Below the pieces are notes generated by a model. That model did no database searches. It was given only the letters and a program-made list of their open reading frames with translations, and was not told the DNA's origin. Position numbers and translations under genes: made by a program. From positions 2,872,565 through 2,936,564 of the forward strand of contig JAKZAN010000001.1 in assembly GCA_023053545.1 (NCBI GenBank): a stretch of 64,000 nt of DNA, read 5' to 3'. Each line of letters begins with the position of its first letter. Position 1 is the stretch's first letter. The DNA is from Lepidurus packardi (taxonomy: Eukaryota; Arthropoda; Branchiopoda; Notostraca; Triopsidae). Below are positions 3,397-57,394 of this stretch, one piece after another.

Positions 3397-6300
3397 GCTG
3401 ACTTAATTCATGAATTACTGATTTAATTCATGAATTACTGACTTAATTCATGAATTACTGACTTAATTCATGAATTACTGACTTAATTCATGAATTACGG
3501 ACTTCATTCACGAATTACTGATTTAATTAATGAATTGCTGACTTAATTCATGAATTACTGATTTAATTCATGAATTACTGACTTAATTCATGAATTACTG
3601 ACTTAATTCATGAATTACTGACTTAATTAATGAATTACTGAATTAATTCATGAATAAAGGACTTAATTCATGAAAAACGGACTTAATTCATGAATTACTG
3701 ACATAATTAAATAATTCATAACACAAATAATTAATTTCTGATTTAATTATTGAATTACTGACTTAATTCATGAATTCTTGACTTAATTATTGAATTCCTG
3801 ACTTATTTCATGAACTACGGACTTAAATAATGAATTACTGACTTAATTCATGAATAACTGATGTAATTAATGAATTGCTGACTTAATTATTGAATTCCTG
3901 ACTTATTTCATGAACTACGGACTTAAATAATGAATTACTGACTTAATTCATGAATAACTGATGTAATTAATGAATTGCTGACTTAATTCATGAATTACTG
4001 ATTTAATTCATGAATTACTGACCTTATTCATGAATTACTGACTTAATTAATGAATTACTGACTTAATTCATGAATAACTGATTTAATTAATGAATTGCTG
4101 ACTTAATTCATGAATTACTGATTTAATTCATGAATTACTGACTTAATTCATGAATTGCTGACTTAATTCATGAATTACTGACTTACTTCATGAATTACTG
4201 ACTTAATTCATGAATTACTGACTTAATTCATGAATTACTGACTTAATTCATGAACTACTGACTTAATTCATGAATTACTGACTTAATTCATGAATTACTG
4301 ACTTAATTAATTAATTCGTAACATAAATAATTAATTTCTGATTTAATTATTGAATTACTGACTTAATTCATGAAATCCTGACTTAATTATTAAATTACTG
4401 ACTTATTTCATGAACTACGGACTTAATTCATTAAATACTGACTAAATTCATGAATTACTGACTTAATTCATGAATTACGGACTTAATTAATTAATTCTTA
4501 AAATAAATAATTAATTTCTGATTTAATTATTGAATTACTGACTTAATTCATGAATTACTGACAAAATTCATGAATTACGGACTTAATTCATGAATTACGG
4601 ACTTAATTCATGAATTACTGACTTAATTAAATAATTCATAACACATAATTAATTTCTGATTTAATTATTGAATTACTGACTTAATTCATGAATTCCTGAC
4701 TTAATTATTGAATTCCTGACTTATTTCATGAACTACGGACTTAATTAATGAATTACTGACTTAATTCATGAATAACTGATGTAATTAATGAATTGCTGAC
4801 TTAATTCATGAATTACTGATTTAATTCATGAATTACTGACTTAATTCATGAATTACTGACTTAATTAATGAATTAATGACTTAATTCATGAATAACTGAT
4901 TTAATTAATGAATTGCTGACTTAATTCATGAATTACTGATTTAATTCATGAATTACTGACTTAATTCATGAATTACTGACTTAATTCATGAATTACTGAC
5001 TTAGTTCATGAATTGCTGACTTAATTCATGAATTACTGACTTACTTCATGAATTACAGACTTAATTCATGAATTACTGACTTAATTCATGAATTATTGAC
5101 TTAATTCATGAATTACTGATTTAATTAATGAATTGCTGACTTAATTCATGAATTACTGATTTAATTCATGAATTACTGACTTAATTCATGAATTACTGAC
5201 TTCATTCACGAACTACTGACTTCATTCATGAACTACTGACTTAATTCATGAATTACTGACTTAATTCATGAATTACTGACTTAATTAATTAATTCGTAAC
5301 AAAAATAATTTATTTCTGATTTAATTATTGAATTACTGACTTAATTCATGAATTCCTGACTTAATTATTGAATTACTGACTTATTTCATGAACTACGGAC
5401 TTAATTCATTAAATACTGACTAAATTCATGAATTACTGACTTAGTTTATGAATTACTGACTTAATTCATGAATTACTGACTTAATTCATGAATTACGGAC
5501 ATAATTAATTAATTCATAAAATAAATAATTAATTTCTGATTTAATTATTGAATTACTGACTTAATTCATGAATTACTGACAAAATTCATGAATTACGGAC
5601 TTAATTCATGAATTACGGACTTAATTCATGAATTACTGACTTAATTCATGAATTACTGACTTAATTAATGAATTACTGACTTAATTCATGAATTACTGAT
5701 TTAATTCATGAATTGCTGACTTAATTCATGAATTACTGATTTAATTCATGAATTACTGACTGAATTCATGAATTACTGATTTAATTCATGAATTACTGAC
5801 TTAATTCATGAATTACTGACTTAATTCATGAATTACTGATTTAATTAATGAATTGCTGACTTAATTCATGAATTACTGACTTAATTCATGAATTACTGAC
5901 TTAATTCATGAATTACTGACTTAATTCATGAATTATTGACAATTCATGAATTACTGAATTAATTCATGAATAAAGGACTTAATTCATGAAATACGGACTT
6001 AATTCATGAATTACTGACTTAATTAAATAATTCATAACACAAATAATTAATTTCTGATTTAATTATTGAATTACTGACTTAATTCATGAATTCCTGACTT
6101 AATTATTGAATTCCTGACTTATCTCATGAACTACGGACTTAATTAATGAATTACTGACTTAATTCATGAATAACTGATTTAATTAATGAATTGCTGACTT
6201 AATTCATGAATTACTGATTTAATTCATGAATTACTGACTTAATTCATGAATTACTGACTTAATTAATGAATTACTGACTTAATTCATGAATAACTGATTT

Positions 6301-43758: not shown

Positions 43759-43934
43759 CCTTTTGGGGACACTTTATCTCGATAAGTCCTTCGTCACCTA
43801 CAAGGCCGTCGGGAGATGCTCCCAGGTAACCTAGCTCAGGATGCACCCAAAACCCTGATGGGACTACAGTCACACAGTTCTTTATTTCGTAGTCTTTCCT
43901 GGCATTTGGCTCATTGGCCTGTCCGTAACGAGTA
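43759..43934 (-). pseudogene. Detached YqaJ-nuclease fragment, identical to 54852-55027
   Basis: These 176 bp, read on the minus strand, match 54852-55027 of the TTAA transposon with no difference that I could see. They encode the catalytic heart of the YqaJ domain (YGQANEPNARKDYE to GASPDGLVGDEGLIEIKC). The fragment is joined to BEL pol on one side and to the fold-back element on the other. It shows that another copy of the transposon existed, or that sequence was copied across 11 kb during repair. Confidence 0.9.
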
Positions 43935-44190
43935 CAGTACTGAAATTAAGTATCGTTCCTATGGTTTTCGAAATTGACCAATCACAGCGCTTTTCCACTG
44001 TTTGGATGGGTTTTTACATTGCTTGCCTACTTCTACGCTCAGGTAGGGTTCTCAACAAGTCCCTCCTTGTTGAGAACCCTACCTGAGCGTAGAAGTAGGC
44101 AAGCAATGTAAAAACCCATCCAAACAGTGGAAAAGCGCTGTGATTGGTCAATTTCGAAAACCATAGGAACGATACTTAATTTCAGTACTG
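43935..44190. mobile_element. Fold-back MITE, near-perfect hairpin with TA flanks
   Basis: Two arms (43932-44059 and 44066-44193, 128 nt each including flank) are reverse complements around a 6-nt loop TCCCTC. The likely element is CAGTACTGAAATT...AATTTCAGTACTG, flanked by TA (43933-43934 and 44191-44192), as for Tc1/mariner-type MITEs. There is no coding capacity; the hairpin could give rise to a long double-stranded RNA. The left TA coincides with a TA in the YqaJ gene, suggesting insertion there. Confidence 0.85.
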
Positions 44191-47100
44191 TACAGAGCTC
44201 AACGAAAGACTTGTCCAAGCGGAAGAGGAGCACATGATTTTCGGCCAAGACCGCTTAAGTTGGATCGCTGACGTTGAAGCCTCAGTCAACAGTTGCTATG
44301 TGGCTATTGATAAATATATTTGCTCACGGGCCGGCAGCTCAGCAGCGTCCACAGTGGCATCGATAGCCCCGTCTCAACGCTCGCAAATGTCAAGAGGAAG
44401 CACCAACACCTCTCATTCTTCCAGGCTGCAGCTTGTGCGACAAGAACGGCGATTTGCAGAGCTTGAGTTGAACCAACTCCAAAGGAATGCCAGGGAGGAA
44501 GCAGCTGAGACTTAGGGAGCTTGAAATCGAGCGGCAGGAGTTGCTGAAGAGGAAGAAACAACGAGAGCTTCAAGATTTGATCGAGAAGCAACGTGCAGAG
44601 GAGCAGATTCTCATAACATCCTTGAACCCTGTACCCGATACGCAAGTTAGTCCCAACACCTCTATTCTCCATCCAGTTGGCAATCCTCCGCCTGTCCTTA
44701 ACCTTGGTGCAAGCTCGGCCTTGACTGCTACGAATCAACAGCCCATGGTAACCTCGTCGCTGCCCTTAAGCGTGCCGTCTTCTACGAATTACCTGATTGC
44801 CTTGCCACCCATAACCTCAAACGAGGCTTGGATTTATTCCTCGGAAACACCTCCTTCGAAGCCGTCGCATAGCTGCAGGGCCGCGCAAATGCAGAAGATA
44901 GACATCATGCATTTTTCCGGGAACCCTAAAGACTGGCCATTGTTCATCTCTACGTTTAAGTCCATGGTCCACGACGTACTGGAAACTGATGACCAACGCA
45001 TGGCGGTTCTCCGACAATTACTCGACCCGAAGGTGCGGAAATCCGTCCGGGGAGCTCTAAACAACCCGGTGCTATACCGAAGAGCTTTGGAGAAGCTCCA
45101 CCGGAAATACGGTCACCCGCAAAAGGTCACGAATGCCTGTTTGCGAAGCGTGCTGAAGTACCCCAAGTTCAAAGAAAACGATTTTGAGGCATTGGAAGGG
45201 TTCTCCGAAGAGCTTCATAATGCCGTAGACACCCTTATCGCTTCTGGTCACGACAACGAGTTGAAGTCCACAGTTTTGGTGCAACAGCTGAAGGACAAGC
45301 TGCCACTGACACTGATGAGCCAATGGGGAGAGGAGATCGAAAGGCTCAAGCCACGGTCTGCGCATCTTCTGGATTTCGACTGCTGGCTGGAGACCAAAGT
45401 GGAGTCTGCAAGCAACGTCCGCACATTGCCCGATACCGACGATTCCGATGACGAGAAGGATAGCCACAAGGCGAAATCTAAGCGCGGATCACGGAAGTCG
45501 AAGGGAAAGGGAAAATACCCCAGGGTGGTCAACGTACTTGCTACTGGCCGCGAAGATAATTCTCAATGCGCTTATTGTAAAAAGCCTAAGCACGAAATTG
45601 CTGTTTGTAGGTCCTTCGCGGCGCTGTCGGCAGAAGAACGAGCCTGTCAAGCGAAGGACAAAGGACTTTGTTTCCGCTGCTCGGGAGATGGACACCTGGC
45701 CAAGGATTGCTCTGCGAAGGCTGTTTGTGGAGAAGCCGGGTGCAAAGCCAAGCACCACACTTTACTTCACCGACCACCTAGGTACTCCAGAAAAGGCGAA
45801 GCCAAGATCCCAGCGACATCTAGCCAAGACTCCATTGCTGTGAACAACGTGAGCTGCCACAAGAACGAAGACTCTCCTCCATGGCTGAAGCGCCGCAACG
45901 TGTCTCTACTTTGTATCGTACAAGGCCAACTACGAGCTAATGGTAGAAGAATCGACACGTTCGCCCTTCTAGACCCCGGATGCGATGGAACGCTTATCCA
46001 CCAAGACATGGCCCGCAAACTGAACCTGAAGGGCCCGATGGAAGAAGCAGACCTCAAGACGTTCAAGGGGAGCGATTCCATGATGGTCCAAACGGTGGAC
46101 TTTCTTATCGCCTCGCTAGATGGGAAAAACGTCTTTTTAGCTGACGAAGCTACGGCAGTTCCGACGCTGGTATCGACCTTCCGCAAGAGGAATATTCCCC
46201 ATCTTAAGAAAGTCTGGCCGCACTTGCAAGATCTGCCATTGAACGAAGCTGAGCCTGGCGAAGTAACCGTTTTCATTGGCACCGACGTACCGGAAGCTCT
46301 TGATTTTGATGATATCCGAAAACCGCCTCCTGGAGTCAGAGGGCCACGCGCGCTGTTTACTCCTTTTGGATGGAGCCTGAGGGGACCAGTCCAAGTCGAG
46401 TCTGTGTTCCCCACCAAGCGGCATATCATGAACATAACTCTCGATGACCTTCATGAGAGCGTGAAGTCCTTTTGGACGACCGAATCACTAGGAGTTACAC
46501 CCACAACATGCAAGATGATATCGGAAACCGACGCAATGTCGCTGAAGACACTAGAGTCGACTGTCCGTTTTGTTGGCGAAAGATACGAAGCAGGACTGAT
46601 ATGGTCTTCGTCGACCGTAACCCTGCCCGACAGCAAGAAGACAGCTCTGCGACGGTTCTTCGCCCTTGAACGGAAGTTGAAGTTGAATCCCGAACTCGCA
46701 AAGTCCTACGTAAAGACCATCGAAGCTTACGTATCGGATGGCCACGCCCGCAAGCTCAGCCGATCAGAGTTGGACAAAACACCCCCCCGCATTTGGTACC
46801 TCCCCCATCACGCAGTGACCAACCCTAACAAACCAGGGAAGGTCAGGGTGGTATTTGATGCTGCTGCGGAAACGGGTGGTGTTTCTTTGAACGGCGCTTT
46901 ACTTACTGGACCCGACTTACTGAATAATCTGCTCGGCGTACTTCTACGTTTCAGGGAGTTTTCCGTAGCGGTCTCCGCGGACATCAAGTCGATGTTCCAT
47001 CAAGTGCAAGTCATTCCCAGTGATCGACCAGCACTTCGTTTCTTTTGGAGATTGCCGTTCGCAGCAACCCCACCAGAGACGTTCGAAATGGCCGTTCAGA

Positions 47101-47558
47101 TATTTGGCGCGAGATCATCCCCGACCGTGTGCAACTACGTGCTGCGAAGAGCTGCTCGAGATAAAGCTGACGAATTCCCACATGTGGCGCCACTGGTTGA
47201 GAAGAACTTTTACATGGACGACTACTTAGACTCCATGCCAGCGGAGGAAGACGCCATTCGCCTATGCCGAGATCTGAAAGAGGTCCTCATTTGCGGCGGA
47301 TTTCCACTGACGAAATGGAAATCCTCATCGCGCCTGGTGTTAGCTTCCTTCCCGGCTGAAGACCGCGTTGACCCGAATATGGACCTTGATTTAGACCGAC
47401 TGCCCGTAGAAAGGACTCTTGGCGTCTGGTGGAATGCTGAGACAGACAGCTTTGCATTCCGCGTAAAGCATATGCCGCGAAGTCGACAAAGCGGGAAATA
47501 CTGCGCATTGTGGCGAGCGTGTTTGATCCTATCGGATTCCTGGTTCCAATCACCTTGA
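44191..47558 (+). pseudogene. BEL/Pao Gag, protease and RT, with frameshifts
   Basis: The Gag N-terminus enters without a start at about 44194 (LNERLVQAEEEHMIFG) and is open to 44515. The frame then changes to the long frame 44487-47558. That frame has a coiled-coil-like region, the DUF1759 Gag domain (HFSGNPKDWPLFISTFK), zinc knuckles (CAYCKKPKHEIAVC, CFRCSGDGHLAKDC), and a protease whose active site reads LLDPGCD (residue 496) instead of D-S/T-G. The Pao RT follows (GKVRVVFDAAAETGG, SADIKSMFHQV, CNYVLRRAA, FYMDDYLDS at about 908). A second frameshift near 47490 moves the coding signal to the next frame. The 5' end and 5' LTR are missing. Confidence 0.9.
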
Positions 47559-50476: not shown

Positions 50477-51356
50477 TTATGAATATCAAAATAACAAAAA
50501 ATAGCAGATATATAAAAAATAAGACTTTATTGGGGATTTTTGTATTATACCAATACAATTTAATTGTAAAAATATTTTATGAGAAATCTCTCGGGCTCCT
50601 AATTTTTCAAGCCATCCTTGATCTTAGGAAACTCTCACTAAATCTCCAATAGGCAAATTAATTTTTCTAGTTATTTGTCTAGATAATAAAGGAATAAACC
50701 ATATTATTGAAACAAAACGCTTATAATTATAGCTAAAGATATAATCACCCCTAACTCTAGATCCAATAAATAATATACTTAAAAAAATCCAAAGATTCCA
50801 CAAATCAAAGCCACTGTTTTTATGAAAACAGACAAAATTGTTAGAGAGGGGTATGGAAATAACAACCAACTAAATAAAGACCCCCGACAATTCCCCCAAA
50901 TCCTAGAAAAAATATTTCATTAACTATATTAAGATCATCATCCAAAAAATTTGATAAAACAGTAAACCTAGGAAATATTAATATAGAAAAATAAGCTAAT
51001 CGAAGTGAATAAATAGCAGTTAAAACTGTGGAAATAATTAATAAGACTAAAAGAAAATTATTTAAATTATTTATTAAAGTTTATTCAATAATAGCATCCT
51101 TAAAATAAAGTCCTGCCAAAAAAGGTATTCCACATAATGCTAAATTAGCTATATTAAAATAACATATAGTAAGTGGAAATCTAAAACTAATACCGCCTAC
51201 TTTACGAATATCTTGCCAGCCGCCTACTTGGTGAATAAACACCCCTGCACATAAAAATAACAAAGCCTTAAATAAAGCATGTATTAATAAACGAAAAAAA
51301 GCTAATAAAGGAAACCCAGTTGCCAAATAAAATATTATTACCCCAAGTTGGCTTAA
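50477..51356 (-). pseudogene. nad5: ND5 (NADH dehydrogenase subunit 5), C-terminal part, nuclear copy
   Basis: This is a copy of a complex I membrane subunit. Read with the invertebrate mitochondrial code it gives the conserved segments LSQLGVIIFY, LLIHALFKALLFLCAG and QDIRKVGG, and later DQGWLEKLGAREISH. It ends with TAA at 50477-50479, next to tRNA-Phe. A TAA at 50624-50626 interrupts the frame even in the mitochondrial code. The upstream half of the gene is at 56610-57394; the TTAA transposon lies between STL and SQLG. The copy is non-functional. Confidence 0.9.
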
Positions 51357-51374
51357 GGCCACGGTGTGGTGTAA
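51357..51374 (+). repeat. Left terminal inverted repeat of the TTAA transposon
   Basis: GGCCACGGTGTGGTGTAA, the inverted partner of 56592-56609 with one G/A difference at position 12. Beyond 18 bp the ends diverge. Confidence 0.9.
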
Positions 51375-52633
51375 GTAGTTGACTATTTTCCGTCAAAAGA
51401 TGTCGCTGGCATAGACCCCTATATCCTGAGAATGCTACAAATAAATATACACCTATGACTAATTTCTCGCACTAGAGGTCTGCACACAATAATTAGGGTA
51501 AAGTATGGGGTAAAGGGAAAAGGTCAGCTTATGCTAAGGAACTTCCTCCCTATGTTCGCTTGAGAATGGGAGGGAATACCAATTTAACTGATAATCCAAT
51601 TTGCATGCGCTAGACGTGTAAGTATTTAGAAATGGCGAAATAAACAATTATATTTTCTTAGAAAATTGTCATTACCATTCTTTATGGTCAAGGTTGACAC
51701 CGTCGTTTTAGGTATAAAATACCAATGGAAGGGATAATCCAATTTCCAAGCTTTAGAAGTGTACTTAGAAATTCCGAACTAAATAATACTATTTTCCTAG
51801 AAAATTGCCATTACCGTGCTTTACACTCAAGGTTACCACCCATCTTATCGCTCGTCTTAGCGATCACTGTTTATATTCTAGCTCTAGTCAACTAATAGCC
51901 TTCGAAGATCTTGCTCTTTTGGGCTTTCGTTCGAAATGTTGATGACCGGGTTAAAATTGCCATGTTAAACTGCTATGGCCCTGCTGAAAAGTGTAATGCA
52001 CGCTGATGATCATCTTGATGCCGATAGGTCATTGATCGCTAAATTACATCTTGCAATAGTTTTTCCTGCTTGGCCCCAGCGTGAAACTCTGGAATGTAAA
52101 ATAAGTTACTGAATATTTTAGCTTTTAGACATGAATCAGTCAAAGGAAGTAACCAATAAAATAGATTCCAAATTATTGAGGATCAGTATTTTGCAACAAC
52201 CTTCACTTTTGATCTCAAATTCACTACAACAACAAGCTTTGATTATATCCCAACGGAATAACTGGAAACGCATAATTTTTCTACTGAGGGGAATTCAATA
52301 TTTCTCAAAACTGAAGGACTTTTTAATTTGTAGTGTTTGTGTAATTTGCCAAAATGCGATTTCAAAGGACATTCACTTTTACTATTTCACTAACTTTTCG
52401 GAATATTGTTATGAAACTTTGACTAGAACGCATTCCGTAATCAGAGATCAGCATCAGTGGTTCTTGATTTCGGTGTTACCAATTTCTTGAATAGTTTCAA
52501 ACATTATAGCATTGTAGTTGATCATTTAAAACGACAACGAAGAAGTTCATTACTGCGTTCGTGAGTCGTACAAACATTGAGTGGCGCAAGTTATTACGTT
52601 ATTTGTTTTTTGCATCGGTACTACTGACTGAAA
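51375..52633 (+). other. Left subterminal region with a duplicated block
   Basis: Non-coding DNA before the transposase. It contains an imperfect direct duplication of about 120 bp (51577-51701 and 51720-51840), each copy ending AGAAAATTG-C/T-CATTACC...CAAGGTT. A 119-codon open frame at 52131-52490 has no recognisable features and is probably chance. The region may hold the promoter and transposase-binding sites, but this cannot be shown from sequence. Confidence 0.6.
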
Positions 52634-55437
52634 ATGGCAAGAAAAAAAATACTGTCATCCTGTAGCAAACAGAAACTGAGAGGCGTTGCTTTGAAGAACC
52701 GAAGAGAAAAGCTTTGCCAAGAACACCCAGCAGATCCAGATGAAGTATCGCCAGGTGAAAGTTTAAAATTACAAACTTCTTGTACTGTAAGTTCCAGACC
52801 TGCTATAGAATCAGTTTCCATTGAGCCTATAGCTAGCACTACCTCCGTTGTTTCCAATAGCTTTGCTAGTTTAGATCTCCTTGACAAAGAAATGAACTGT
52901 CTCGAAGATGACGAAATTTCACGCATTCTTAAAGAACAGGCAGAAATTGATGCTGTAGAACTTAACATTGAACCTGTTTGGTATTCGCAACCAAAAATGA
53001 AGAAAGAAGTTGACGGACTTCGATTAGTAAATGTTTGCCATTTCTTGTCAGGGCACAATAAGATTTTTGAACACTACGATATTTGTCGCTCACCCATTCC
53101 TTTCCAAAAGGAAGTTAAGAAAGGTTTTTGGAGCAGTTTTGCTTTCAAATGTGAGAAATGCCAGGAGAATATTTGTATAACAACTGACCAGGTTTCTCCA
53201 TATGCACATGTAAGGCCTACCCAAAAGAACATTTCGCCGCATGCTGCACGCTTGAGGTCAGATAAAGTTCAGGCTCTGTCCGTCAACACAAAAATTGCAA
53301 TGGGAATTATGCAAATTGGTGCAGCCCATAACCACTTAGAAGAATTCATGGCAACCGTTGGCGTTCCTTCAATGAACCGCAACTCATTTATTGAACAGGA
53401 ACGTAAAGTTGGGAAAATATGGGAGAAAGAGGCAAAGCTAGAAATAGAAAATGCAGGGAAGGAAGAACGCGAATCGGCTGAACGGGCTGAACAAATCGAC
53501 GAAGACAACACGCCGTACATAACCGTAATTGGCGATGGTGGGTGGTCTCAAAGGAGCCACGGCACCAGGTACTGTACACAGCCAAGTCAGGTGTGGGCGT
53601 AATCATTGGTGCGCGGACCAAGAAAATATTGCATGTAGGAGTTCGTAACAAATATTGTTCCATTTGTCAACAAGCTAAGAACAAACAAGTGGATCCTCGC
53701 CCCCACGAATGTTTCAAAAACTGGGACGGTCCGTCTACAGCAATGGAAAGCTCCATTATTGTAGATGGTTTTAGAGATGCTGAAGACAAGCACGGCTTGC
53801 GCTATCGAACGTTTATTGGTGACGGGGACCCTTCGACCCATAATGCTATCCTCGCTAATACTCCTCGCACTCAGAAAACCGTCCGCAAGCTTGAGTGTGC
53901 AAATCATGTAATGAAAAATTTCACGAAAGCTCTGTATAAACTTCAGGGCAAAACCCCTGCCAATAAGAAAATTTTGACCCCTCTTTTGATACGTAAACTT
54001 GGCGGTGCAGCACGAGGTGCAATCAATCGTAACGTTAGATTGAAGGGAAATGTTGATCAACTTCGTTCATTTCTGAGCAATGGTCCCAGACATTATCTTT
54101 TGAATGACCACACTTTTTGCACTGCGGCCAGCGATGGTGGAAAGGGTTGTAAGTCAGTGGGTCAGAAATTGAAACAGAATGTACACACTGCTTTGTACAC
54201 TGAAGTAATGGAGATCTTGTTGGGCTGTAGGAGCAAAGCTGCAGGTTTGCTTACCGAAGTTACGACTAACCTCGCAGAGCGGTTTATGTCCATGGTGGCT
54301 AAATTCTCTGGTGGCAAGCAATTTCTCCGCTCGCAAAGGGGATCTTATAATTACCGATGTTATGGTGCTGTTCTAGAATATCACCATGGACGAGGTTTTC
54401 AGGCTGCCATTTTGAAAAAATATGGTTCCTGTAGCATTGCTACAGAAAATTTTGCCAAGAATTGTCACGACGATATTCTTTCGTTCAGAAATCGGTTAGA
54501 GAAGTCACGGGAAAATAATGCTATTGCTTCTCCACGACAAGCTTTGACTCGGAGGCGTGAAGCTTTCGCAGGACCTGATTGCCATTATGGAAAGCCAGAT
54601 TTGCCAGAGGAGATCTTACGTGACAGGTGCAAACTGATTGTTGCTCAACAGCAGCTTAGCAGGGAGCAGATTGTGGCCCTTGAAGAGAAAACTAGAGAGC
54701 AGGCTGATTCTTCTGATTGGTTTGATGCAAGGGCGAGTAGACTGACCGCTTCTCACTTTGGCAAAGTGTGTAAGCTCAGAGATACAACTTTGCGTCAAAA
54801 TACATTGCAAGCAATACTAAGTCCTAATAACATTAGCACAGAAGGTAGGCCTACTCGTTACGGACAGGCCAATGAGCCAAATGCCAGGAAAGACTACGAA
54901 ATAAAGAACTGTGTGACTGTAGTCCCATCAGGGTTTTGGGTGCATCCTGAGCTAGGTTACCTGGGAGCATCTCCCGACGGCCTTGTAGGTGACGAAGGAC
55001 TTATCGAGATAAAGTGTCCCCAAAAGGCAGAGACAGCGTCTTCCTTCATTGAATTTGTAAAATGAAAACCGAAGGACTGCTTTCTGGAGTTAGTTGATGG
55101 TGACAAACTGAGATTGAAGAGAACGCACAATCACTACTACCAAGTTACAGGACAGCTTGCCGTGACCGGAAGAGCGTGGTGTGATTTTGTTGCATGGACA
55201 AAGAACAGTTTGCAAGTTGAGCAGATTGTGTTTGACAGGGTTTTTTGGGAAGACACAATGCTTCCAAAACTCAGAGCCTTTTTCATGGACTGTATGTTGC
55301 TTGAACTTGCAGACCCGCGGATGGGACAAAAGTTGGCTCCGCGGGAGCCGCCTTACGTTTTGGCCGCTATAGAGGCTAAAAAGGTCGCAGACCAAACAAA
55401 CGGTAAAAAGGCCGCAAAGAGACCACTTGATCAGTGA
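52634..55437 (+). pseudogene. DDE transposase fused to YqaJ-type nuclease, one frameshift and one stop
   Basis: About 930 residues from ATG 52634. The first frame runs to the GDGGWSQRSHG motif (53531-53563), where a small indel near 53570 moves coding to the frame 53542-55065. A TGA at 55063-55065 interrupts it, and the same frame continues to 55437. Transposase motifs are GDGGW (first acid), CSICQQ...HEC (metal-binding insert), GDGD (53819-53830), ECANHVMKN (C2H) and NLAERFMSMVAKFSGGKQ (glutamate). After a helical linker comes the YqaJ/lambda-exonuclease fold: WFDARASRLTASHFG, YGQANEPNARKDYE, GASPDGLVG with EIKCP (metal-binding D and ExK), and HYYQVTGQLAVTG. The N-terminus has a CEKC motif. 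Transposase cuts at TTAA; the role of the nuclease is unknown. Confidence 0.82.
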
Positions 55438-56591
55438 TCTGATGCACATATTATGTTGGTCAAACATGCACATGGATTAAAATTATAAATGTACCGTGAG
55501 GTCAACTTATTGAAAGCTTATATGAAATGCACGTCAAAGCCTCTCCTGAGATGATTTCCTTCATGAAATCATTGAGTTCACCAATGAAAAACATCCGAGA
55601 GGTTGCTATCAAATATAAAATGCCACCGTGAAATGGTATCTTTTAAATATACCATTGAGCCAAGAGTTTTTTGCATCCGGTGATGACAATACTAACTAAT
55701 GCCTGAGAGTAAAGGATAGTTTGAGCCTCTCGTGAGATGTCAAATATAAAATGCCACCGTGAAATGGTATCTTTTAAATATACCATTGAGCTAAGAGTTA
55801 CTTGCATCCGGTGATGACAAAATTAGAACTGATGCCTAAGTAAAGCTAGTTTTCATTATTACAAACCAACACGTAAGGTAAGTTTCTTTAATAAATGTAT
55901 GTATTTGTACTGTAAATTTTCCAAATTTACACGCCAAGCAGCTAACTGCAGCTATACTTATAGTCTTAGCTTTCGTAACCAAGCCGGAAATCTTTTCACC
56001 TTTTCTAGACCCAACTTGGTTCGCTTTCTTGACCTCTTTCCCCTCTTTGCTAACAGGGGGAAAATGTTCGAGAAAAGCCATTCGGAGACAAAAAGAAAAG
56101 GGTAAAATGCCACAAGGTATTTGTGCCCTTGGGTTACTTTAGGCTCGAGCAAACCCAATTAGTGACTTGTCATATCCTTCCCCCTACTTTTACGGTATCT
56201 CCTTTTCATCCTCATTCTTGAGTTCTGCACAAGCTATGCAGTTTCCTGCCTGGTCGTTATTTTCTGAGTGGCAGCACAATTTCTCATCCGAATTTCATAA
56301 ACTTTAGTACACCTTTCCAAGTAAACAGTAAGAGATAATTGAAAAATTCTTTCTTTAAAAATATCATAATAATAAACTCGAAAAATCTGGGTTCGGTTTT
56401 TTTTTCTATATCAATATTTTAACATGTTCTTCTACGTAAAAAATTTATGGAAGCCAAATATTAAAAACTAGCAACCCAGTTAAATTGAAAAAGAAATACA
56501 ATACATTACTGTCACAATACAATTTGATTATATTGCAAAGGGACTGAGAAAGGTGTAACTTAAGTTTGCCATGCTATAGCGCCATAAGGAG
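55438..56591 (+). other. Right subterminal region with a duplicated block
   Basis: Non-coding. It contains a direct duplication (55609-55720 and 55740-55850) sharing AAATGCCACCGTGAAATGG and GCATCCGGTGATGACAA. AATAAA at about 55890 is a possible poly-A signal. No supported gene was found in the rest. Confidence 0.6.
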
Positions 56592-56609
56592 TTACACTAC
56601 ACCGTGGCC
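56592..56609 (-). repeat. Right terminal inverted repeat of the TTAA transposon
   Basis: Read on the minus strand: GGCCACGGTGTAGTGTAA, the partner of 51357-51374. TTAA (56610-56613) follows outside. Confidence 0.9.
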
Positions 56610-57394
56610 TTAAAGTTGATAAAGCAATAATTTTTTTAAAATCATATTCATACAGAGCTGCTATACCAGCCATAAATATAGTTCTAGCTGATAAACACAA
56701 CAAAATATCTAATATCAAAGTTCCTACTAATATATCATAAAATCGAATTAATAAATAGACACCTGCTGTTACTAAGGTAGACGAGTGTACTAATGCTGAC
56801 ACAGGGGTTGGAGCAGCTATAGCTGCTGGCAACCATGCTGAAAACGGAATCTGAGCTCTTTAAGTTATAGCTGCTACAATAATAAGATAAGATAAAAACG
56901 TTAAAGAATGTGAATCAAATAAGCTGTTTTGCTGAAAATACGGTAGAAATCTATAGTCCCCTAGTATTATTCACCACGAAACTATTAATAAAAAACAAAC
57001 ATCCCCAATACGATTAGATAAAGTTGTTAATATCCCGGCTGATGGAGACTTTCTATTTTGATAATAGATGAGTAAAGCATAAGAAACTAACCCCAACCCT
57101 TCTAATCCTAATAAAATTCTAATTAAATTAGGAATACTAATCAATAAGACTATAGTAAACACAAACCCAGCAACAATTAAAATAAATCGATTTGCACTTA
57201 AATCATGGATTATATAACTTCATCGATATAAAACTACTGTAGCGGAAATAAAAAGAACTAAACTAATAAAAGAAAGAAACTCAATCTACTAAAAAAGTTG
57301 CCGAGACTCTAACCCCATTAATAAAAAAAAATTAAATTCAATAAAATTTCTGCTCTGAAATATTAATACAATCACCCCTAATATTAAAATTAGT
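56610..57394 (-). pseudogene. nad5: ND5, upstream part, nuclear mitochondrial copy
   Basis: In the mitochondrial code this gives [67 protein letters not shown] (conserved segment, shown in parts) and [13 protein letters not shown], where the transposon begins. A TAA just before the AQIPFSAW segment replaces an expected sense codon. The sequence near 57290 also carries a stop. It runs to about 57394, where the I-group element starts; the first codons of ND5 are not identified. Confidence 0.88.

Follow-up and report, generated by a model that had tools for sequence, protein, structure and literature searches.

The window, a stretch of 64,000 nucleotides from contig JAKZAN010000001.1 of Lepidurus packardi, contains at positions 51357-56609 an element that, set beside the published traits of KolobokE, is almost certainly a recently active DNA transposon of this type. 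We make this assignment because the element has TTAA target-site duplications, GG...CC ends, empty sites, a transposase and a YqaJ (lambda-exonuclease-like) nuclease domain in one protein, and a CCHC zinc finger. Comparison of copies and related families in the same genome indicates that the fusion of the two domains is real and has been kept. Taken as a whole, the explanation that joins this identity to a role of the nuclease in the repair of DNA breaks is the one we favour, with some confidence. The original prediction knew of no precedent for YqaJ in TTAA transposition; there is one, as Kojima and Bao (2022, PMC9587614, in the sections consulted) describe the fusion for KolobokE, a lineage of Kolobok. 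The architecture is thus already in print, and the element is a further KolobokE-type member, one of several related families that this genome contains.

Boundaries and insertion site

The element is 5253 bp long and is bounded by TTAA duplications at 51353-51356 and 56610-56613, and its inverted arms (51353-51374 and 56592-56613) are 95% complementary over 22 nt with the TTAA counted in, which bears out the earlier description of a complete mobile element. That description had also placed an exact empty site in ND5, and the flanks agree with it. Joining them produces an uninterrupted peptide under table 5 (the invertebrate mitochondrial code), and this 41-residue peptide matches solved ND5 chains in a PDB sequence search, the best match (E-value 1.4e-8) taking in all 41 residues. 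The flank at 56863-57285 is likewise an ND5 match in that search (8.4e-31), and a Pfam scan of the same segment was empty at 0.001. A search of the same genome with the joined 125 bases had 11 hits, two of them the window halves themselves and nine uninterrupted, with 87-97% identity (for example G000:C1:3038246-3038370 and C21:94570-94694). These uninterrupted copies, together with the unbroken joined frame, show that the insertion was exact. The nine are most likely mitochondrial fragments of differing age in the nucleus, and one of them may be the mitochondrial genome proper; the target was one among several copies of the mitochondrial gene, most likely nuclear ones. The features of the element and its flanks are as follows.

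51293..51352, minus strand: ND5-like target flank (these 60 bases tested)
51353..51356, no strand: left target-site duplication TTAA, from the sequence and the comparison of ends among copies
51357..51374, plus strand: left terminal inverted repeat, 18 bp, starting with GG
51575..51840, plus strand: span of a pair of subterminal direct repeats, about 80% alike (51575-51701 and 51718-51840)
55609..55825, plus strand: span of two direct repeats of 86 nt, 94% alike (55609-55694 and 55740-55825)
56592..56609, minus strand: right terminal inverted repeat, 18 bp, ending with CC
56610..56613, no strand: right target-site duplication TTAA
56614..57285, minus strand: ND5-like flank beyond the right end of the element (tested over its first 60 bases and over 56863-57285)

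Copies in the same genome

The left 344 bases of the element have 73 matches in the 108.6 Mb searched, many of them matches between inner repeats, and 39 stretches of this genome were taken for the analysis of copies. Nine motifs, four of the transposase and five of the nuclease, were checked in each copy, and all nine lie in one open frame in 14 of the 39 stretches; the fusion is therefore open in other copies, as the original prediction had proposed to establish by gathering them. Five of these 14 frames have 930-932 codons, three have 855-915 and six have 800, these six starting downstream of an in-frame stop in the N-terminal region. TTAA precedes every left end that passed our end filter in the window and the 39 stretches (34 of 34), a count in which the end of L010 appears twice (again in L032), in which L022 and L023 share one flank, and from which L037 and the older ends of L042-L047 dropped out by failing the filter. 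Among the 34 left ends there are 32 distinct left flanks. Where both ends are present, TTAA is found on both sides in 23 of 24 copies, window included, the remaining copy having TTAG at the right, and the window and sampled copies share GG...CC termini. The 12 near full-length copies, window included, differ from each other by a median of 0.6% (range 0.1-0.9%, 66 pairs). These figures mark it as a young element that has transposed many times.

Several insertions have unusual surroundings. Kolobok elements abut head to tail with a single shared TTAA where family 1 lies directly beside family 2 (the L032/L010 junction). At the right end of L015, family 1 abuts in the same manner, again over one TTAA, an element starting GGCCACGGTGGA, beside a YqaJ fragment from another family, and L040, a deletion copy, sits inside TTAGG-like repeats. 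Such repeats and an ND5 read in table 5 are both suggestive of an arthropod.

The transposase-YqaJ gene

The gene of the window copy is broken, and its parts are as follows.

52634..53602, plus strand: frame one, with the N-terminal part and PF20700 positions 1-168, GDGGW (first catalytic D) last
53542..55065, plus strand: frame two, with PF20700 positions 168-351 (IGDGD, ECANH), then NLAERF and YqaJ up to the in-frame TGA
54715..55173, plus strand: YqaJ/lambda-exonuclease-like domain, PF09588 positions 1-149 with the TGA read as X
55066..55437, plus strand: remainder of YqaJ and the C-terminus beyond the stop

A frameshift between about 53540 and 53600 splits the transposase, and the TGA at 55063-55065 interrupts YqaJ, after which coding resumes in the same frame to 55437. 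The Pfam profile search that had been proposed as a check matched both domains in the window frames, PF20700 at 2.1e-29 (52634-53602) and 1e-44 (53542-55065) and PF09588 at 2.7e-14; in one intact fusion protein the two reach 2.8e-81 and 5.7e-16. Both motif sets had been assigned to the single frame 53542-55065, which is right for IGDGD, ECANH, NLAERF and most of YqaJ; GDGGW belongs to frame 52634-53602, and the last part of YqaJ, which includes the Q motif, lies beyond the frame. Other copies hold all motifs in one frame. The larger claim stands: this is a DDE transposon specific for TTAA whose transposase is fused to a YqaJ nuclease.

The order GDGGW, IGDGD, ECANH, NLAERF reads as a predicted DDD/E catalytic set with CxxH between the second D and the E. 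In P0001, a 927-residue protein from L031 that lacks the first Met, these positions are D298, D392/394, CxxH at 417-420 and E544. A CCHC finger follows the first D (C337, C340, H353, C355) and recurs unchanged in all five fusion proteins of our alignment that extend over the region. Between CxxH and the last E we find H488, C491 and C501, a four-ligand zinc-finger set not being clear there. In the consulted sections of PMC9587614, Kolobok is characterized by TTAA duplications, by termini of the form 5'-RR and YY-3' and by C/DxxH between the second D and E; a zinc finger between CxxH and the last E is a criterion for Kolobok and KolobokE, and a CCHC finger downstream of the first D is a trait of KolobokE and a few other lineages.

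Other assignments were considered and rejected. No piggyBac model in Pfam matches, at E-values up to 1 for the window frames and up to 0.05 for the intact protein. MuDR/Mutator, from which PF20700 takes its Pfam name, has target-site duplications of 8-11 bp, and here the duplication is the 4-bp TTAA. ISL2EU is rejected on the TTAA duplication and on YqaJ being fused to PF20700, not a separate open reading frame (ORF). An artefact or chance overlap of two genes does not agree with the two domains sharing a frame in 14 of 39 stretches and at 42 of 80 listed YqaJ matches.

The nuclease domain

By sequence, the closest solved relative of the domain is the 3syy exonuclease (1.1e-14), followed by the lambda exonuclease entries of the PDB (0.064-0.44). 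An ungapped match of P0001 727-792 to 6m9k 71-136 places E741, D775, E785 and K787 on residues 85, 119, 129 and 131, and we take D119, E129 and K131 to be the active site of lambda exonuclease. These four putative active-site residues are intact in P0001 and invariant across 12 aligned rows, six from phage-type exonucleases and six from fusion proteins or fragments, of which five are near-identical. PHROG matches are to an exonuclease (3.1e-17) and a RecE-like exonuclease (5.7e-14), and the NCBIfam lambda-exonuclease family model scores 6.6e-10 at 39.3 bits, under its curated cut-off of 68.05. A search of viral contigs with a single fusion protein found no relatives; searched with the alignment, viral contigs yielded 48 stretches that fit the pattern, of which 6 were confirmed, every one over the YqaJ part alone, and prokaryote genome contigs yielded 28 pattern matches with none confirmed.

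Conservation of the fusion across families

Only the best candidates were scored in the genome counts of PF20700 and YqaJ matches and in the protein-family comparisons, and the figures are lower bounds; two domains were taken to share an open frame when they lay on the same strand, no more than 2.5 kb apart, in frames of the same length. The original prediction would be contradicted by domains found separate or by YqaJ being absent, and this outcome did not occur: of the 80 YqaJ matches listed, 42, a few of them partial copies, fall in the same open frame as PF20700, and 11 others, including the one in the window, follow closely downstream of PF20700 on the same strand in another or a broken frame. 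A further 16 are convergent with a DDE_Tnp_4 gene in the fashion of ISL2EU. At most 11 are unpaired, an upper bound because the pairing took in 22 of 150 DDE_Tnp_4 matches, one of them under a wrong contig number. Conversely, for 7 of the 68 PF20700 matches listed the 6 kb downstream contain no PF09588 match, and some of these seven loci still show YqaJ fragments by protein search.

The fusion is present in at least seven families of this genome. Family 2 (L028-L036) is close to the window element, with 93-95% identity of aligned gene DNA in five longer copies and 90-92% in four shorter ones. The distant families, found with P0001 as the query, show 45-51% identity to it over about 820-920 residues. 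The stop-free ones have open frames of 981, 944, 1003 and 873 codons, and the 864-codon family is open across both domains, its match extending upstream through stops; every distant family has at least one copy with an uninterrupted frame over both domains. Compared domain by domain with P0001, fragments excluded, transposase/YqaJ identities are 51/55% in the 981-codon family (YqaJ 54% in one copy), 53/55% in the 944-, 48-49/56% in the 864-, 48/52% in the 873-, 48/52% in the 1003- and 44-45/52% in the 980-codon family. In all six distant families YqaJ (52-56%) is therefore conserved no less than the transposase (44-53%), and because this identity goes together with open frames, YqaJ appears to have been kept by selection.

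Mosaics, deletions and repair-like traces

Copies of mixed descent and copies with internal deletions are both present. L036 is a mosaic: of the informative sites, it follows family 2 at all 164 between 11 and 2936, family 1 at all 21 between 3163 and 4060, and family 2 once more at all 84 between 4741 and 5232. L037, of family 1, has a short family-2 tract (5 sites, 3703-4060), and its sites past about 5010 are poorly aligned and mixed. Relative to L036, an internal stretch is missing from six of the nine family-2 copies, in five kinds, with both ends retained. One of these kinds is found at two sites with different flanks (L029/L033), and a family-1 deletion copy is found at three (L038-L040), which suggests that deletion copies move. 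In the other two, L028 and L030, the corresponding place holds 679 bp of other sequence or is rearranged. Two methods disagree on how many bases are extra or shared at the deletion junctions, and these sizes were left unused. Mosaics and internal deletions fit homology-templated gap repair and its failures, without being specific to nuclease-bearing elements.

Two further rearrangements were seen. L030 (G000:C6:2093700-2100700) has an additional inverted copy of the right end, about 1 kb, inside the element. In the window itself, at 43759-43935, a 177-bp piece of KolobokE YqaJ coding sequence, 100% identical to most sampled copies, lies inside a retroelement remnant that is 74% like part of the ORF at 44487-47558 (a DUF1759 match and a weak RVT_1 match), which we take to be Pao/Bel-like. 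The piece adjoins a near-perfect 262-bp palindrome (43932-44193), and the full chimera was found only at this place among the best 40 of 81 candidates. It resembles filler DNA that was copied into a break as this was repaired.

Possible role of the nuclease

In the literature searched, and in the sections of it consulted, no role of the lambda-exonuclease-like domain in KolobokE was seen to be tested or suggested. The transposase would excise and insert the element at TTAA by cut-and-paste, and the fusion would bring the YqaJ domain to the break, where it may trim one strand of the broken ends in the manner of phage lambda exonuclease. Such trimming would steer the donor break to homology-templated repair, which could restore the element from the sister, the homologue or a related copy; failed repair would leave internal deletions, and ectopic repair would leave mosaics. 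That YqaJ resects break ends in favour of homology-templated repair is the most likely of the options that we considered, and we put it forward tentatively. With slightly greater reserve, we propose that the element brings its own end-resection enzyme, controls the repair of its donor break and turns cut-and-paste into copy gain without relying on host resection.

Several observations weigh against this proposal. L029 and L033 have lost more than half of the gene, including all of YqaJ, and yet were apparently mobilised, so that a copy need not itself encode the nuclease. Mosaics and internal deletions also arise in cut-and-paste transposons without a nuclease and therefore do not point to YqaJ, and the reference used for the deletions, L036, is itself a mosaic. 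Between families 1 and 2, changes in YqaJ are mostly non-synonymous in two of three pairs (synonymous/non-synonymous 0.5/8.5 in L031-L037, 0.5/10.5 in L031-L027 and 1/1 in L036-L013), in a comparison with divergence too shallow and copies too mosaic to judge YqaJ, and the ratio of non-synonymous to synonymous rates for the transposase is 0.29-0.33. Constraint on YqaJ is thus visible in the distant families only, not in this recent comparison.

The nuclease may instead act within transposition, removing flanking bases, non-transferred strands or by-products such as hairpins and donor circles, or preparing ends, with no part in the choice of repair route. The fusion, which ties nuclease to transposase, agrees with this, as do the other nucleases of other Kolobok lineages, DEDDh in KolobokD and His-Me in KolobokP, the former suggested to degrade DNA intermediates (PMC9587614). 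We regard such a role as rather unlikely. The TTAA duplications are precise in 23 of 24 copies, and Kolobok lineages lacking YqaJ make them too (PMC9587614, in the sections consulted), which indicates that YqaJ is not needed for precision.

It is improbable that YqaJ serves mainly to bind DNA or DNA ends, or as a means of oligomerisation, with catalysis dispensable. The YqaJ proteins of ISL2EU are described as DNA-binding and of unknown function (PMC4482050, in the part consulted), in keeping with such a module; the invariance of E741, D775, E785 and K787 and the conservation of YqaJ relative to the transposase in the distant families both argue against it. More improbable still is a nuclease aimed at other DNA, such as viral or rival-element intermediates, which would help the element only indirectly: the domain does match phage exonucleases, but it is fused to the transposase rather than separately expressed, and is so in each of at least seven families. 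A functionless passenger left by an ancient read-through fusion would agree with the excess of non-synonymous over synonymous changes in two of the three family 1-2 comparisons, where changes are very few, and is highly improbable given the open frame and 52-56% identity retained in six distant families.

If YqaJ does resect ends in favour of templated repair, this would reveal how a transposon that moves by cut-and-paste gains copies, with possible relevance to tools for gene transfer. As young copies (median 0.6% apart), intact fusions, distant families, deletion copies and mosaics are all found in one genome, the question of the role is testable in cells.

Comparison with known systems

The nuclease belongs by sequence to the family of 3syy-type and lambda exonucleases, with aligned active-site residues. 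Those are stand-alone enzymes, and phage exonucleases of the lambda type pair with an annealing protein, whereas here the domain is fused to a transposase. With piggyBac the element shares the TTAA duplication, but the transposase is of another family, and piggyBac ends begin with CC where those of the present element begin with GG.

ISL2EU, of the PHIS superfamily, also carries a YqaJ exonuclease domain. There it is a separate second ORF (PMC4482050; PMC9179366) that accompanies a PIF/Harbinger-like transposase and an AT duplication (PMC4482050, in the part consulted), in contrast to the fusion and TTAA found here. At least 16 convergent pairs of DDE_Tnp_4 and stand-alone YqaJ were seen (for example C4:3082603-3083915 and C6:4397906-4399218), and by their sequences ISL2EU-like elements coexist with KolobokE in the same genome. 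Their YqaJ is 38-42% identical to that of the fusion in 15 of the 16 pairs and 48% identical over a short piece in the other.

KolobokD, KolobokP and KolobokH resemble the element in joining a Kolobok transposase to an added DNA-processing enzyme and differ in the enzyme, which is a DEDDh nuclease in KolobokD, a His-Me homing nuclease in KolobokP, where there are also long terminal direct repeats, and a RecQ helicase in KolobokH (PMC9587614). With KolobokE itself the element shares TTAA, the termini, the DDD/E set with CxxH, the CCHC finger and the YqaJ fusion. What is added here to the published description is detail: an open frame some 930 codons long, several families within this single genome, and mosaics.

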